The translations under genes and the position numbers were made by a program. A DNA stretch of 64,000 nucleotides from Puia sp. Its GTDB lineage: Bacteria > Bacteroidota > Bacteroidia > Chitinophagales > Chitinophagaceae. Location of the stretch: NCBI GenBank assembly GCA_031292515.1, contig JARLGZ010000269.1, positions 62,001 through 126,000 of the forward strand, given 5' to 3'. Each line of letters starts with the position of its first letter. Position 1 is the stretch's first letter. The notes beneath the pieces are model-generated. The model was not told the DNA's origin. It did not search any database and saw only the letters and a list, made by a program, of their open reading frames with translations. Positions 15,586 to 22,696 of the stretch are shown piece by piece.

Positions 15586-16188
15586 CTAGTTCGTCTTCTT
15601 CCACGGTTTATAAAGGGGTGCCCCGGTCTGCGCGATGCCCGGGTAGCCGGCAGGTAATTCCCGCAAAGGATCGCAAGGCTGCCAACCCTCCTGCATCTCC
15701 CGGGGTAGCGACTGGTAAAGCGCCGTTCCGGCAGTCTTCCAGTCCAGCATCTCCTCGCTGACCTCGCGGATGATCCGTCCGGGATTGCCGGCCACCAGGC
15801 TCCTGGCGGGAATTTTTTCACCGGCCTTTACAAAACTCAACGCGCCGATGATACACTCATCCCCCAGTTCTACCTCGTCCATGATGACACTGTTCATGCC
15901 TACCAGGCAGTTCCGGCCGATACAGGCGCCATGAACCACGGCGCCGTGACCAATATGCGCGCCTTCTTTCAGCAACACTGCAACACCGGGGAACATATGG
16001 ATCGTACAGTTTTCCTGGATATTACAACCATCTTCCACGATGATCCTCCCCCAGTCTCCACGCAAGGCGGCGCCGGGACCGACATAGACATTCCTTCCGA
16101 TGATCACCTGTCCTGTGACAGTAGCCTGGGGATGGATAAAAGATGATTCGTGGACAACGGGAATGACACCTTTGAATGAATAAATCAT
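15586..16188 (-). CDS. paaY: Hexapeptide-repeat protein PaaY (gamma-carbonic-anhydrase-like)
   Basis: Start at MIYSFKGVIPVVHESSFIHPQATVTGQVIIGRNVYVGPGAALRGDWGRI; in the paa cluster. Confidence 0.82.
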   Translation of the reverse strand: MIYSFKGVIPVVHESSFIHPQATVTGQVIIGRNVYVGPGAALRGDWGRIIVEDGCNIQENCTIHMFPGVAVLLKEGAHIGHGAVVHGACIGRNCLVGMNSVIMDEVELGDECIIGALSFVKAGEKIPARSLVAGNPGRIIREVSEEMLDWKTAGTALYQSLPREMQEGWQPCDPLRELPAGYPGIAQTGAPLYKPWKKTN

Positions 16189-16240
16189 AAGCCAATGAAT
16201 AAAACAGATTACAGGTTGGATGCCCCTTACCGGCTGCATG

Positions 16241-17017
16241 TTACTCCCCCTTGAAAACCGGTGCTCTCTTTTCGAGAAAGGCAGCCACCCCCTCCCTGAA
16301 ATCATCGGTATGAGAGGCGGCATACTGAAGACGATCCTCTTCCTGCAATTGCTGTTCGAACGAATTCGTGAAAGAGGCATTCAGGGCGCGTTTGGTATAG
16401 GCAAGACTCTTTGTGGGCATCCCGGCAAGCGTCTTTGCGATTTTCATCGTCTCTACCCCGAAGATCTCATCGGGGTAGACCTTATACAGCAGACCCCAAC
16501 GCTCTGCCTCGGCTGCACTGAGCTTATCGCCTAACATCATCAGCGCGGAAGCCTTCTGCCAACCGATCAACCGGGGCAGCAGGAAAGTGCCTCCACTGTC
16601 CGGGATGAGACCGATCCTGGAAAATGCCTGGATGAACACCGAAGACGAAGCCGCCAGGATCACGTCGCAACAAAGGGCGATATTCGCCCCGGCTCCCGCC
16701 GCCACTCCATTTACGGCCGCGATAACCGGTTTGGGTAAAGCGCGGATCCGGGTGACGATCGGGTTGTAATGCTCGTGAAGAATGCTGACCATCCCCGGTC
16801 CCTCTGGGTCGGTAATCTCCGAGAGATCCTGCCCGGCGCTAAACCCTTTCCCCGCACCTGTTATATAGACGGCCCGTACTGCCGGCGAGGCGGCGCACTC
16901 ATCAAGAAGACGCTGAAGCGACAGCGCCATTTCCCGGTTAAAGGAATTGAGCCTCTCTGGACGGTTCAGCGTCAGGATGGCGATATCGTTTTCTATGGAG
17001 AATAATATGGAAGACAT
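16241..17017 (-). CDS. paaG: Enoyl-CoA hydratase/isomerase, PaaG-type (ring-epoxide isomerase)
   Basis: 258 aa; crotonase fold RPERLNSFNREM, GKGFSAGQDLSEI, AVNGVAAGAGANIALCCD; position in paa cluster. Confidence 0.82.
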   Translation of the reverse strand: MSSILFSIENDIAILTLNRPERLNSFNREMALSLQRLLDECAASPAVRAVYITGAGKGFSAGQDLSEITDPEGPGMVSILHEHYNPIVTRIRALPKPVIAAVNGVAAGAGANIALCCDVILAASSSVFIQAFSRIGLIPDSGGTFLLPRLIGWQKASALMMLGDKLSAAEAERWGLLYKVYPDEIFGVETMKIAKTLAGMPTKSLAYTKRALNASFTNSFEQQLQEEDRLQYAASHTDDFREGVAAFLEKRAPVFKGE

Positions 17018-17103: not shown

Positions 17104-17601
17104 TCAATGACATTTAAAATAATCAAAAGGCTCCTGGCAGGTCCGGCATTGATAAAGTGCCTTGCAGGGCGTGGAACCGAACCGGCTGATAAGCCGGGTA
17201 TCATAAGAGTTGCATCTCGGACAAGGGATCGCCTCTTCTTCGTGGAATGCCCGGGTATGGCAGACGGGTTGACCGGGAAGCGGGGGTGCGATACCAAAAG
17301 CCTTTAACTTGTCCTTTCCTTTTTCCGAGATCCAGTCCGTCGTCCAGGCCGGCGAAAGTTCAGTCCTGACCTGCACATTCCCATAACCCGCCTTTCGCAG
17401 GGTATTGTACACATCGAGTATGATCGCTTCCAGGGCAGGGCATCCGCTGTAGGTCGGCGTCAGCGCCACGACAACCGAATCCGTCTCCGTTTCGATCTTT
17501 CTGATGATACCCAGATCGATGACGGACAATACCGGGATTTCTGGGTCGCAGACCGTTTCCAGCAGACCCCGCACCTCTTTCTCAATAATCCGGTAATCCA
17601 T
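17104..17601 (-). CDS. paaD: Phenylacetyl-CoA epoxidase subunit PaaD
   Basis: Start at MDYRIIEKEVRGLLETVCDPEIPVLSVIDLGIIRK; C-terminal zinc ribbon CPRCNSYDTRLISRFGSTPCKALYQCRTC. Confidence 0.88.
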   Translation of the reverse strand: MDYRIIEKEVRGLLETVCDPEIPVLSVIDLGIIRKIETETDSVVVALTPTYSGCPALEAIILDVYNTLRKAGYGNVQVRTELSPAWTTDWISEKGKDKLKAFGIAPPLPGQPVCHTRAFHEEEAIPCPRCNSYDTRLISRFGSTPCKALYQCRTCQEPFDYFKCH

Positions 17602-17620
17602 ATCCTGATGTTTTACAACC

Positions 17621-18466
17621 TTACCATTCGCAACCGGGGTAGGCCCGCTGCAGGAATTGCATCTCTGCCAGCAGATATCCAAGATGCTCCGTATGCTGAC
17701 CTTCCTTGCCTCCCGCCCTGCTCCGTGTCATTATCGCCGAACCCGTGTGTGCAGAACCATTGCTTGTCCCGTCTTCCGGGGGAAATAGACCGGCCCTCGC
17801 CAACGTTTCAAGGATCGTGTCCTCCCAGGGCAACCTGCAGGAGGAGAGATCGGCCCCATATCCTTCCGCCAGCAGTTCCTGTTCGTAGGGGGCCGCAACG
17901 AATAACTCACCTGTAAACAGCCATAGGTCTTCCAGGGCATGCCTCATACGGCGATGGCTCTCCGCCGTTCCGTCCCCCAGCCGGATCACCCATTCGCTGC
18001 TCCACCTCAGATGATAGGCCACTTCCTTGATCGATTTTTCCGCGATGGCAGCCACCTGTTGATCGTCACGCTGCTTCAATCGGTCATAGAGGAGGAACTG
18101 GAAGGCGCTGAAAAGAAATTGTCTCAGGACGGTCTTCCCCCAGTCACCATTGGGCTGCTCCACCAACAGACAGTTTTTATAATCCCGGCTGTCACGAAAG
18201 TAAGCCAGTGTATCCTCGGAAACCTCGCCGCTGACCTTCACACCCGGCAAAACCTTTTCCTTCATCCCCCTTTCCCTGTTGACAAGCCGGGCCGCATATT
18301 GATACAGGTTTCTCGCCTGGCCGATCAGGTCGAGCGATATATTTGAGAGGGCGATATCCTGTTCCAGGATCGGCCCATGCCCCGTCCATTCGCTGTTCCG
18401 ATGTCCCAGGATCAGGGAATCGTCGGCCAGGTGCAGCAAATAGTGGATATGTTGATCTCTCCGCAT
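17621..18466 (-). CDS. paaC: Phenylacetyl-CoA epoxidase subunit PaaC
   Basis: 281 aa; LLHLADDSLILGHRNSEWTGHGPILEQDIALSNISLDLIGQARNLY. Confidence 0.9.
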   Translation of the reverse strand: MRRDQHIHYLLHLADDSLILGHRNSEWTGHGPILEQDIALSNISLDLIGQARNLYQYAARLVNRERGMKEKVLPGVKVSGEVSEDTLAYFRDSRDYKNCLLVEQPNGDWGKTVLRQFLFSAFQFLLYDRLKQRDDQQVAAIAEKSIKEVAYHLRWSSEWVIRLGDGTAESHRRMRHALEDLWLFTGELFVAAPYEQELLAEGYGADLSSCRLPWEDTILETLARAGLFPPEDGTSNGSAHTGSAIMTRSRAGGKEGQHTEHLGYLLAEMQFLQRAYPGCEW

Positions 18467-18476
18467 CGGGTAACGA

Positions 18477-18803
18477 TTACATATTTTTCAATTCATCCGG
18501 CAGCACATAAAAAGTCGGATGCCGGTAAATTTTGTCATTGGCGGGATCATAGAGGGCCCCCGCTTCATCCGGATCGGAGGCATGAAGATGCCTGCTTTCA
18601 ACGACCCAGATGCTCACCCCTTCCATGCGGCGGGTATATACATCGCGCGCATTTTCGATGGCCATCCGGGCATCTGCAGCATGCAGGCTGCCGGCATGTT
18701 TGTGGTCCAGTCCCTGCCTGCTTCGGATAAACACTTCCCAAAGAGGCCAGCTTCCCGCCCGGGGGGAAGGATTGTTTGAGGAGAGCTCATTTTCAGGATT
18801 CAT
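18477..18803 (-). CDS. paaB: Phenylacetyl-CoA epoxidase subunit PaaB
   Basis: 108 aa; [49 protein letters not shown]. Confidence 0.92.
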
Positions 18804-19777
18804 GATTTTTCGGAATTTTCTTTGACAGAAGAGATTCGTTTGTTTTGCAAACGCAGTTCATGGGCGGTCGCCGCTTCCCTCACCCAGGCGCCTTCTTCAT
18901 GCGCCCGCACCCTGGCGGCCATCCTCTCCCGGTTGCAAGGCCCATTCCCGTTTATCACGTTGCGAAACTCTTCCCAGTCGATCGGGCCGAAATCATACTG
19001 GCCGGTTTGTTCGTTCCAAACCAGGTCGGGATCGGGCAGGGTCATCCCCAGTATTTTCACCTGCTCAGCGCAGACATTGACAAAGCGCTGCCGCAGCTCG
19101 TCATTCGTAAAGCGTTTGATCTTCCATCGCATGCTCTGCCCGGTATGGGGAGAGGCATCGTCGGAGGGGCCGAACATCATGATAGAAGGCCACCACCAGC
19201 GGTTGATGGCATCCTGGCACATCCTCTTCTGCGCGGCGCTGCCCCGGCTGAGGGTCAGCAGGATCTCGAAACCCTGTCGCTGATGGAAGCTCTCTTCCTT
19301 GCAAATCCTCACCATCGCCCTGGAATAGGGACCATAGGAACTCCTGCAAAGAGGAACCTGGTTCATAATGGCGGCTCCGTCGACCAGCCAGCCGATGACC
19401 CCGATATCCGCCCAGGTCAGGGTGGGGTAATTGAATATGGAAGAATATTTGGCCTTGCCGGTATGCAACTGGTCGATCATCTCGTCCCTCGAAATACCCA
19501 GGGTCTCGGCCGCGGCATAGAGATACAGCCCATGACCCGCCTCATCCTGCACCTTTGCGATCAGCGTCACTTTTCTCCGAAGGGAAGGCGCCCGCGTAAT
19601 CCAGTTGCCCTCCGGCAGCATACCGACGATCTCGCTATGCGCATGCTGCGAGATCTGCCGGATTAGCATCCTGCGATAGGCATCGGGCATCCAGTCCCGC
19701 GGTTCTATACGGATCTCCCGGTCGATACGATCCTGGAAACCCTTCTCCGGTTCCTGTATGGATAAAGAATCGTTCAT
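18800..19777 (-). CDS. paaA: Phenylacetyl-CoA epoxidase subunit PaaA
   Basis: Likely start [19 protein letters not shown] (track start 19822); [38 protein letters not shown]. Confidence 0.92.
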
Positions 19778-19799
19778 GGCAAGGCAATGGGTTTGCAGC

Positions 19800-19807
19800 C
19801 AAAGGTA
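19800..19807 (-). promoter_or_regulatory. Candidate -7 element TACCTTTG of paaA promoter
   Basis: Minus-strand TACCTTTG (TAnnTTTG) 23 nt upstream of the paaA ATG. Confidence 0.55.
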
Positions 19808-19825
19808 CATTTTTCCACCCAAAAA

Positions 19826-19839
19826 CTAACGACTGTTAG
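19826..19839. promoter_or_regulatory. Candidate TetR operator upstream of paaA
   Basis: CTAACGACTGTTAG; same motif as at 21675..21688. Confidence 0.65.
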
Positions 19840-20937
19840 CTATTTGTTGTCGAAATCCACTACCACTCTCGCGGTCCGCGGGTGTGACTGGCAGGTGAGA
19901 ACAAAGCCGGCCGCCAGCTCATCGGCTTCAAGGGCATAGTTAGTTTCCATATACACTTCACCTTCGGTTACCCGTGCCCGACAGGTGCAGCAGACGCCCC
20001 CTTTGCAGGCATAGGGGAGGTCGATTCCTTCCAGCAGCGCCGCATCGAGTATCGGCGCGCCCTCATAAGGCAGGTCGAATTCGACACTATTGCCGTCGAG
20101 CCGGATCACGACACGACCCGACTTTCCGGCAGGGTCTTTTTTCCCGGGCGAAACGGATGAGGATACTCCCCCGGGCTCACCGGCCATTCCCGGCGTATGG
20201 AACAGCTCAAAATGGATTTTTTTCGGATCGAATCCTTGCTGGTTTTCCAGCCAGTCTCTTACGCCAAAGATCATTTCTTTGGGCCCGCAGAGAAAGATTT
20301 CGTCCATTTCAGAAAAGGATATCAGCTTCCCGTCCATCTCCCGGCATTTCTCGGGGCCAATCCTGCCGCGTCCTACAGGAGTGTCTGTCTTCTCCCGGCT
20401 CAGGATATGGTGGAGGGTGAAGCGATCCATATAACGGTCTTTAAGGGCTTCCAACTGTTCCCTGAAGATGATGGAGCCCCGGCTCCGGCTACCGTAAACC
20501 AAGGTGAATTCGCTCCGGACTTCCGTCGCCAGCGTAGTCCTGATGATCGAAAGCAGGGGAGTAATACCGCTTCCTGCGGCAAACGCCAGGTATTTTTTGT
20601 CCCGCCGCGGATCCAGTTCCGTATAGAATTTTCCGGAAGGCGGCAGCACATCGAGCAGATCGCCGGGTTGCAGCCTGTCATTGGCATAGACGGAAAACCG
20701 GCCATTCGCGACCCTTTTCACCGCCACTCTCAACTCGTTATCAAGCGGACTGCTGCAGATCGAATAGGAACGCCTGATATCCTCTCCTTCCAGGGTAGCC
20801 CTTAATGTGACGTTCTGACCCTGCCGGAAGCGGAATCTCTCTGCCAGGGCAGGGGGAATGATAAAAGAGAGGGAAACACAGTCGGCAGTCTCCCGACGGA
20901 TATCTTTGATTGCCAGTTGATAGAAATGTGATGCCAT
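19840..20937 (-). CDS. paaE: Phenylacetyl-CoA epoxidase reductase subunit PaaE
   Basis: 365 aa; FAD/NAD reductase (RRSYSICSSP, FAAGSGITPLLSII) plus C-terminal 2Fe-2S CKGGVCCTCRARV. Confidence 0.9.
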   Translation of the reverse strand: MASHFYQLAIKDIRRETADCVSLSFIIPPALAERFRFRQGQNVTLRATLEGEDIRRSYSICSSPLDNELRVAVKRVANGRFSVYANDRLQPGDLLDVLPPSGKFYTELDPRRDKKYLAFAAGSGITPLLSIIRTTLATEVRSEFTLVYGSRSRGSIIFREQLEALKDRYMDRFTLHHILSREKTDTPVGRGRIGPEKCREMDGKLISFSEMDEIFLCGPKEMIFGVRDWLENQQGFDPKKIHFELFHTPGMAGEPGGVSSSVSPGKKDPAGKSGRVVIRLDGNSVEFDLPYEGAPILDAALLEGIDLPYACKGGVCCTCRARVTEGEVYMETNYALEADELAAGFVLTCQSHPRTARVVVDFDNK

Positions 20938-21046
20938 TTTTTAGACTTATTGAAGCGATGGGCCTGCCGGGGGTCTCCTGCCGGGGGCTTATTTCTCAAT
21001 CCTGGTTCACTGCCCCATACTTGTTCAACCCCTATATCCCCAATTC

Positions 21047-21652
21047 TTACATCTTCAGATCCTGCTTCTTCAGGCCCTCGATCAGGAAAGTGACCATATT
21101 GCCCTCCAGCACTTCGGCGCTGATACTTTTTCGCGAGCGTTGCCAGGAGTCGATTCCGCTGACGGCTGATAGTATGGTAAGAACGGCTACATAAGGCTCG
21201 ATATTCTTCATTTCTCCTCTTTGAATGCCTTGCTCGATGATATCGGCCAGACGCTTCCGGTAACTCCTGCGCTGGTTCAGGAAATTTGACAGGTAAGGTT
21301 CCGGCAGATGCCGCCATTCATGATCGGAGATATATACATACTCATATTGATCGAGCATCATCCGAATATGCAGGCGGATAATGGTTTCCATCTTTTTTAG
21401 CGTGGGCTGACTGCTGGCCTCCACGACCTCGAGATGAGAGATGAATTCGTTGGCCACCTTAAAGCAGATGGCCTGCAGGATCTCCGATTTTGACTGGATA
21501 TGATTATACAGGCTGGCTGCCTCGACCCCTACATGCTCCGCCAGATCCCGCATCGATGCGGCGCCAAAACCTTTCTCGCGGAAAAGCTTCGAGGCTTTTT
21601 CCAGGATCACTTCTTTTTTTGTGCTGTTTTTTTTGCTTTGAATCTTTGCCAT
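21047..21652 (-). CDS. TetR/AcrR family transcriptional regulator (probable paa repressor)
   Basis: Start at MAKIQSKKNSTKKEVILEKASKLFREKGFGAASMRDLAEHVGVEAASLYNHIQSKSEIL (TetR HTH). Confidence 0.85.
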   Translation of the reverse strand: MAKIQSKKNSTKKEVILEKASKLFREKGFGAASMRDLAEHVGVEAASLYNHIQSKSEILQAICFKVANEFISHLEVVEASSQPTLKKMETIIRLHIRMMLDQYEYVYISDHEWRHLPEPYLSNFLNQRRSYRKRLADIIEQGIQRGEMKNIEPYVAVLTILSAVSGIDSWQRSRKSISAEVLEGNMVTFLIEGLKKQDLKM

Positions 21653-21661
21653 AATCCGCCG

Positions 21662-21669
21662 CAAATATA
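21662..21669 (-). promoter_or_regulatory. Candidate -7 element TATATTTG for the tetR gene
   Basis: Minus-strand TATATTTG a few nt upstream of ATG 21652. Confidence 0.5.
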
Positions 21670-21674
21670 AAAAA

Positions 21675-21688
21675 CTAACATTTGTTAG
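21675..21688. promoter_or_regulatory. Candidate TetR operator (autoregulatory)
   Basis: CTAACA-TT-TGTTAG, perfect 6-bp arms, overlapping the tetR promoter. Confidence 0.68.
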
Positions 21689-21772
21689 CCTTTTATTATT
21701 TAAAAAACCACGCGGACGCTTTATTGCCTGCAAAAATTCGTATAGATTTGCACGGCAATAAAAAACCAATTT

Positions 21773-22696
21773 ATGTCAATAATCGTTTTGGGGACAATGG
21801 CTTATGACGCTATCGAGACGCCTTTTGGAAAAACCAACAGGATCGTCGGCGGATCGGCGACCTATGTGGCCTATGCCGCCAGCAACTTCGTAAAGCCCAT
21901 CAAGCAGTTGTCCATCGTGGGAAACGATTTTTCCGGCGAAGAAATGAAAGACCTTGAAAGCCGTGGTGTGGAACTGGAAGGGGTCGAAATCGTCAAGGAT
22001 AAGAAATCTTTTTTCTGGAGCGGCAAATATCATATGGATATGAACAGCCGGGACACACTGGTTACAGACCTGAACGTGCTGCTGGATTTTAACCCGGTGG
22101 TACCGGCCAGCTATCAGGGCAGCGAATTCCTGATGCTCGGCAACGTGTCCCCCAACCTCCAGTTAAGCGTCATCGAACAGTTGACGACCCGCCCCAGGCT
22201 GATCGTGCTCGACACGATGAACTACTGGATGGAATCCGCACTTTCCGACCTGGAGAAAGTACTGAAAAGGGTAGATGTGCTGATGGTCAATGACAGCGAA
22301 GCCCGCCAGCTGAGCGGCCAGTTCTCGTTGGTAAAAGCAGCCAAAGAGATCCTGAAGATGGGCCCCAAATACCTGATCATAAAAAAAGGGGAACATGGGG
22401 CGCTCCTTTTCCACGGAGACCAGGTCTTCTCCGCACCGGCCCTGCCCCTGGAAGAAGTCTTCGATCCTACCGGCGCCGGCGACACCTTCGCGGGCGGGTT
22501 TATCGGCCATCTCGCCCATACAAGAGATCTGTCTTTCGACAATATGAAGACCGCTATCATCGTTGGCTCGGCACTGGCTTCCTTCTGCGTGGAGAAATTC
22601 GGACCCACCCGCTTGAAAGAGATCAGGAGAGGAGATATCGACGCACGCATACGCCAGTTCGTGGATCTCGTCAGCTTCGAGATAAAACTGGTCTGA
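21773..22696 (+). CDS. PfkB-family carbohydrate/nucleoside kinase
   Basis: 307 aa; IVGGSATYVAYAASNF, FDPTGAGDTFAGGFIGHLA. Confidence 0.88.
   Translation: MSIIVLGTMAYDAIETPFGKTNRIVGGSATYVAYAASNFVKPIKQLSIVGNDFSGEEMKDLESRGVELEGVEIVKDKKSFFWSGKYHMDMNSRDTLVTDLNVLLDFNPVVPASYQGSEFLMLGNVSPNLQLSVIEQLTTRPRLIVLDTMNYWMESALSDLEKVLKRVDVLMVNDSEARQLSGQFSLVKAAKEILKMGPKYLIIKKGEHGALLFHGDQVFSAPALPLEEVFDPTGAGDTFAGGFIGHLAHTRDLSFDNMKTAIIVGSALASFCVEKFGPTRLKEIRRGDIDARIRQFVDLVSFEIKLV

Follow-up and report, generated by a model that had tools for sequence, protein, structure and literature searches.

A putative PaaR-type TetR repressor in Puia whose operator recurs at phenylacetate, acyl-CoA, branched-chain amino acid and gluconeogenesis genes

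The window, that is, the whole 64-kb stretch of Puia DNA that was analysed, carries on its minus strand, in the order of transcription, tetR, paaE, paaA, paaB, paaC, paaD and the paaG-like and paaY-like genes (Table 1). PaaA to PaaE passed their family cut-offs, whereas the matches of PaaG and PaaY were good yet below theirs. The tetR product is by family a TetR-type DNA-binding protein (PF00440, 50 bits; PF17932, 70 bits). A PfkB/ribokinase-like gene (21773-22696) lies divergent to tetR and adjoins it across Chitinophagaceae; an NCBIfam search at E ≤ 1e-30 gave no match for this gene.

Table 1 Genes, candidate operators and promoter elements of the tetR-paa locus (window coordinates)
Feature	Position	Strand	Description
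paaY-like	15586..16230	-	hexapeptide protein; TIGR02287, 228 bits (cut-off 320)
paaG-like	16241..17017	-	isomerase/hydratase; TIGR02280, 313 bits (cut-off 345)
paaD	17104..17610	-	TIGR02159, 201 bits
paaC	17621..18466	-	TIGR02158, 264 bits
paaB	18477..18803	-	TIGR02157, 139 bits
paaA	18800..19777	-	TIGR02156, 535 bits; ATG at 19777
paaA internal-promoter -7 box	19800..19807	-	TACCTTTG; 18 bp from operator 2
Operator 2 (paaA)	19826..19839	-	CTAACGACTGTTAG; minus-strand reading CTAACAGTCGTTAG; upstream of paaA
paaE	19840..20937	-	phenylacetyl-CoA epoxidase reductase; TIGR02160, 435.9 bits (cut-off 420.8); follows tetR, without own operator
tetR	21047..21652	-	201-aa regulator, TetR_N + TetR_C_24, PaaR-like; ATG at 21652
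tetR -7 box	21662..21669	-	TATATTTG; Bacteroidota-type; 5 bp from operator 1
Operator 1 (tetR)	21675..21688	-	CTAACATTTGTTAG; minus-strand reading CTAACAAATGTTAG; upstream of tetR

Both candidate operators are 5-4-5 inverted repeats with CTAAC/GTTAG arms. Read on the minus strand, the tetR promoter consists of CTAACAAATGTTAG-ttttt-TATATTTG-10 nt-ATG, and that of paaA of CTAACAGTCGTTAG-18 nt-TACCTTTG followed by the start codon; the paaE stop codon (19840) directly abuts operator 2. Scored on the -7 box, the TAnnTTTG element of the Bacteroidota primary sigma factor was found near the operator at both tetR and paaA, in the window as well as in congeners, where it lies 2-11 bp from the operator in most tetR promoters and 16-20 bp from it in 11 of 17 paaA promoters. 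The two palindromes just upstream of such -7 boxes, as described in the first-pass annotation, were thus confirmed. A sigma-70 scan of 19700-21800 gave no match, as expected for Bacteroidota promoters. The 10-nt spacing between the end of the tetR -7 box and the ATG (21652-21669) is kept in most congeners, and this short, conserved distance suggests that the tetR transcript probably has little or no leader.

From base composition, CTAACRNNYGTTAG is expected 0.015 times per 64 kb, and the probability of two or more chance occurrences is about 1e-4; hence the tetR/paaA operator pair is not attributable to chance. It is extremely improbable that the palindromes arose by coincidence or form a repeat without regulatory function. 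Nothing speaks for this except that other short palindromes exist in the window, and it is opposed by the low expectation, by conservation of the sites and by their co-occurrence with tetR. Judged from the sequence, the two matching palindromes are almost certainly landing sites of the adjacent TetR repressor.

The operator upstream of tetR is kept in 21 of 23 congeners, and the exact operator precedes paaA in all 19 genus genomes with testable upstream sequence. The proposed autoregulatory site at tetR and the internal operator and promoter at paaA are both supported by this conservation, the latter even where paaA has been parted from tetR-paaE. Several congeners (e.g. G007, G009 and G011; loci L092, L100 and L126) retain the paaA operator with unrelated genes between paaE and paaA; the inserts in these three loci are sigma-factor/anti-sigma/TonB-receptor-like sets or lipoproteins. 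In G030, tetR and paaE-paaA are on separate contigs with one site at each, and G024 and G039, which have paaA and lack this tetR, have no operator. Neither an operator nor a convincing terminator was seen between tetR and paaE in the window, and the operator was absent upstream of paaE in all 21 relatives in which paaE follows tetR. The absence of a site from this gap was therefore borne out, and it fits a single tetR-paaE transcript, as had been suggested.

Across Chitinophagaceae the usual gene order is tetR-paaE(-paaA). Among 80 loci fetched by protein similarity, 46 have an operator upstream of tetR, the call requiring 9 or more of the 10 arm bases within 200 bp; the other 34 have no clear site in that interval, indicating that not all of these tetR genes are autoregulated. 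TetRs with 32-41% identity in several other families of the order directly precede paaABC, and the operator is located 3-65 bp upstream of tetR. Six loci from these families (L129, L131, L132, L133, L135 and L139) carry a second, divergent kind of paaABC directly after tetR (PaaA about 55% and PaaB about 30% identical).

The strict motif occurs 108 times in the genus against 28 times for the reversed control, and 3 against 5 times in five genomes of the order lacking this tetR. At E ≤ 1e-20, at most one such TetR is present per congener. Since the motif is in excess only together with this tetR and no congener has more than one such protein, the paa-linked TetR suggests itself as the regulator at all of the sites. 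The assignment of the palindromes to the adjacent TetR is accordingly favoured, as the sites track the presence of its gene. A second such TetR (C145) is confined to the own genome; it was rejected as regulator of the wider sites, given this restriction and the lack of an operator upstream of it.

A pattern search of the own genome (7.34 Mb) found 6 strict sites, compared with 1.7 expected from composition and 0 for the pattern read backwards; sites with 2 mismatches were mostly background and were left uninterpreted. Besides tetR and paaA, the strict sites precede genes for a branched-chain aminotransferase (BCAT; C28), citrate synthase (C33), a thiolase (C143) and a short-chain-type acyl-CoA dehydrogenase (ACAD; C149), and a variant site, CTAACAACCGTTCG, precedes a second acyl-CoA dehydrogenase gene (C198). 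With 1.7 chance sites expected genome-wide, one of the six may be due to chance, namely the citrate synthase site, which was seen in the own genome only. Sites found once or within genes, at a carbamoyl-phosphate-synthase-like gene (G022) and a gene for a hypothetical secreted protein (G009), were treated as chance, as were those that fall within open reading frames in Flavihumibacter, G024 and G035.

In congeners, strict sites recur at tetR, paaA, ACAD1, ACAD2, thiolase, BCAT and in the gap between pckA and the Xaa-Pro aminopeptidase gene. Because this list came from loci fetched by the motif, the targets were tested again with loci fetched by protein. In the genus, the operator was then present at 9 of 14 thiolase, 9 of 12 BCAT ortholog and 8 of 10 pckA promoters; it was absent from BCAT paralogs (0/7) and from the outgroup families (thiolase 0/9, BCAT 0/9 and pckA 0/8). 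Fisher tests gave p values of 0.001-0.003 for the thiolase, BCAT and pckA enrichment, a statistic that ignores relatedness. ACAD1 has a strict site in 10 of the 10 near-complete genus genomes looked at, the ACAD counts being conditioned on motif-fetched loci. No such pckA is present in the own genome, where the site next to the aminopeptidase gene is degenerate (CTAACAAGTGATAG). In a single congener (G017), the operator also occurs before the genes encoding phosphoenolpyruvate synthase and 2-oxoacid dehydrogenase E2 (L212:3034-3047 and L215:3053-3066).

Restriction to paa operons is a usual, though not strictly defining, feature of PaaR. Here, the operators conserved at thiolase, BCAT, pckA and ACAD genes suggest that the regulon is wider than paa, and the view of a paa-only regulon could not be upheld. 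The expectation that scanning the genome with the motif would reveal the remaining paa genes, paaK, paaZ, paaJ and paaH, failed for paaZ and paaK. No site within 2 mismatches was found near paaZ (G000:C137:40977-42995), located on the same contig about 38 kb from paaA, and no paaK scored above the family cut-off in 30 genomes (the own genome and 29 relatives), indicating that phenylacetate ligase is missing or non-canonical. The thiolase (C143) could be PaaJ; its best-matching families are acetyl-CoA acetyltransferases.

One might still suppose a dedicated PaaR that controls only tetR-paaE and paaABCDGY, with the sites at acyl-CoA, BCAT and pckA genes either serving a different regulator whose operator is similar or arising by chance. 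Loci from the order's other families indeed showed the operator only at tetR/paa, without the wider targets, and the PaaR of Thermus is known as a paa regulator. However, the wider sites have the same core and many congeners carry them at the same genes, and no other close TetR relative was detected in those congeners at E ≤ 1e-20; we consider such a narrow regulon unlikely.

The operators reported for Thermus thermophilus PaaR (TTHA0973) are CNAACGNNCGTTNG and AACnAACGTTnGTT, as quoted in PMC6651687 from Sakamoto et al. 2011, and the consensus given there rests on two promoters. Compared with CNAACGNNCGTTNG as quoted in that source, the Puia sites match 9 of 10 (paaA) and 8 of 10 (tetR) specified bases. 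In both organisms, going by the quoted sequences, two paa promoters, one of them the regulator's own, share a nearly identical 14-bp operator, and the TetR-family gene lies beside the paa epoxidase genes, which for Puia holds across Chitinophagaceae. The Puia system differs in its core, CTAACRNNYGTTAG, and in the presence of the operator at acyl-CoA, branched-chain amino acid and PEP-carboxykinase genes in the genus. By analogy of family, gene neighbourhood and operator, the Puia protein is a candidate PaaR of the Thermus type. The site that the first-pass annotation derived from the window is thus real, but its sequence is not new, being nearly that published for T. thermophilus PaaR as quoted in PMC6651687. 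In the literature searched, no paper on this regulator or regulon, or on a Bacteroidota counterpart, was found. What the present analysis adds is not the kind of site but a Bacteroidota member, the phylogenetic support for it and its expanded regulon.

PaaR of Burkholderia cenocepacia is also of the TetR type, represses paa operons and is released by phenylacetyl-CoA, but its operator, ACCGACCGGTCGGTT (PMC9493321), is unrelated in sequence to that of Puia. The AlphaFold model of the Puia protein (pLDDT 92) is a standard TetR, and its best PDB matches in Foldseek include the acyl-CoA-type regulators KstR2, PfmR, AibR with isovaleryl-CoA and Bacillus subtilis FadR. T. thermophilus PfmR (TTHB023), a close structural match, has a mixed regulon, as predicted for the Puia protein, but differs in its operator, of the TACCGACCGNTNGGTN type (PMC7022988), and shows 25% identity. 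AibR, KstR2 and B. subtilis FadR, of the same TetR fold class as the Puia protein, have CoA-thioester effectors, 19-25% identity and different targets. These structural matches, together with the release of Thermus PaaR by phenylacetyl-CoA (PMC9493321), make a CoA thioester the likely ligand, as judged from the model and by analogy.

Which thioester this would be separates two variants of the same explanation. The TetR may be mainly a fatty-acid or branched-chain (FadR/LiuR-like) repressor that senses short or branched acyl-CoA, retaining paa as one target from its PaaR ancestry, with phenylacetyl-CoA not the main ligand. This variant, to which we give somewhat less than even odds, agrees with the acyl-CoA and branched-chain amino acid genes being the targets most conserved in the genus, with the fold resemblance to AibR (isovaleryl-CoA) and KstR2/FadR and with most of these genomes lacking a canonical paaK. 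It sits less well with the placement of tetR beside paaE/paaA across Chitinophagaceae and with an operator that resembles that of Thermus PaaR rather than those of Thermus FadR or PfmR in the sequences quoted; TTRNACYNRGTNYAA, the Thermus FadR operator, was not matched by the tetR and paaA sites of Puia.

Taken together, the most probable explanation (roughly 80%) is a PaaR-type, acyl-CoA-sensing TetR repressor whose regulon has expanded to acyl-CoA and branched-chain amino acid catabolism and gluconeogenesis; from the sequence, its conservation, the co-occurrence of the sites with this tetR and the modelled fold, we infer its binding, the sign of regulation and the ligand. The protein encoded at 21047-21652 would bind CTAACRNNYGTTAG as a dimer. 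Right against the tetR -7 box, it would repress tetR-paaE and thereby its own gene; about 18 bp upstream of the paaA -7 box, where the -33 region is expected to lie, it would repress the internal promoter for paaABCDG(Y). This repressive action is suggested by operator position and the habit of the family. Phenylacetyl-CoA or another acyl-CoA would release it. Within Puia, this operator appears to have been recruited upstream of pckA and of genes for short-chain acyl-CoA dehydrogenases, acetyl-CoA acetyltransferase and branched-chain aminotransferase. The TetR would thereby coordinate gluconeogenesis with the catabolism of acyl-CoA, branched-chain amino acids and aromatic CoA intermediates. 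We lean slightly towards a further step, in which one lineage of Chitinophagaceae converted a local PaaR-type phenylacetate repressor into a master switch; under it, PEP carboxykinase would increase along with the catabolism of CoA thioesters (from acyl-CoA, branched-chain amino acids and aromatics), one operator having multiplied over 5-8 promoters with the ancestral tetR-paa sites kept.

Local regulation of catabolism is little described in environmental Bacteroidota, and the finding offers a concrete operator and a list of targets. The expansion of a local repressor's regulon is, moreover, a case that can be placed on a tree, and it predicts that phenylacetate, branched-chain amino acids and gluconeogenesis would be coupled in these soil bacteria.
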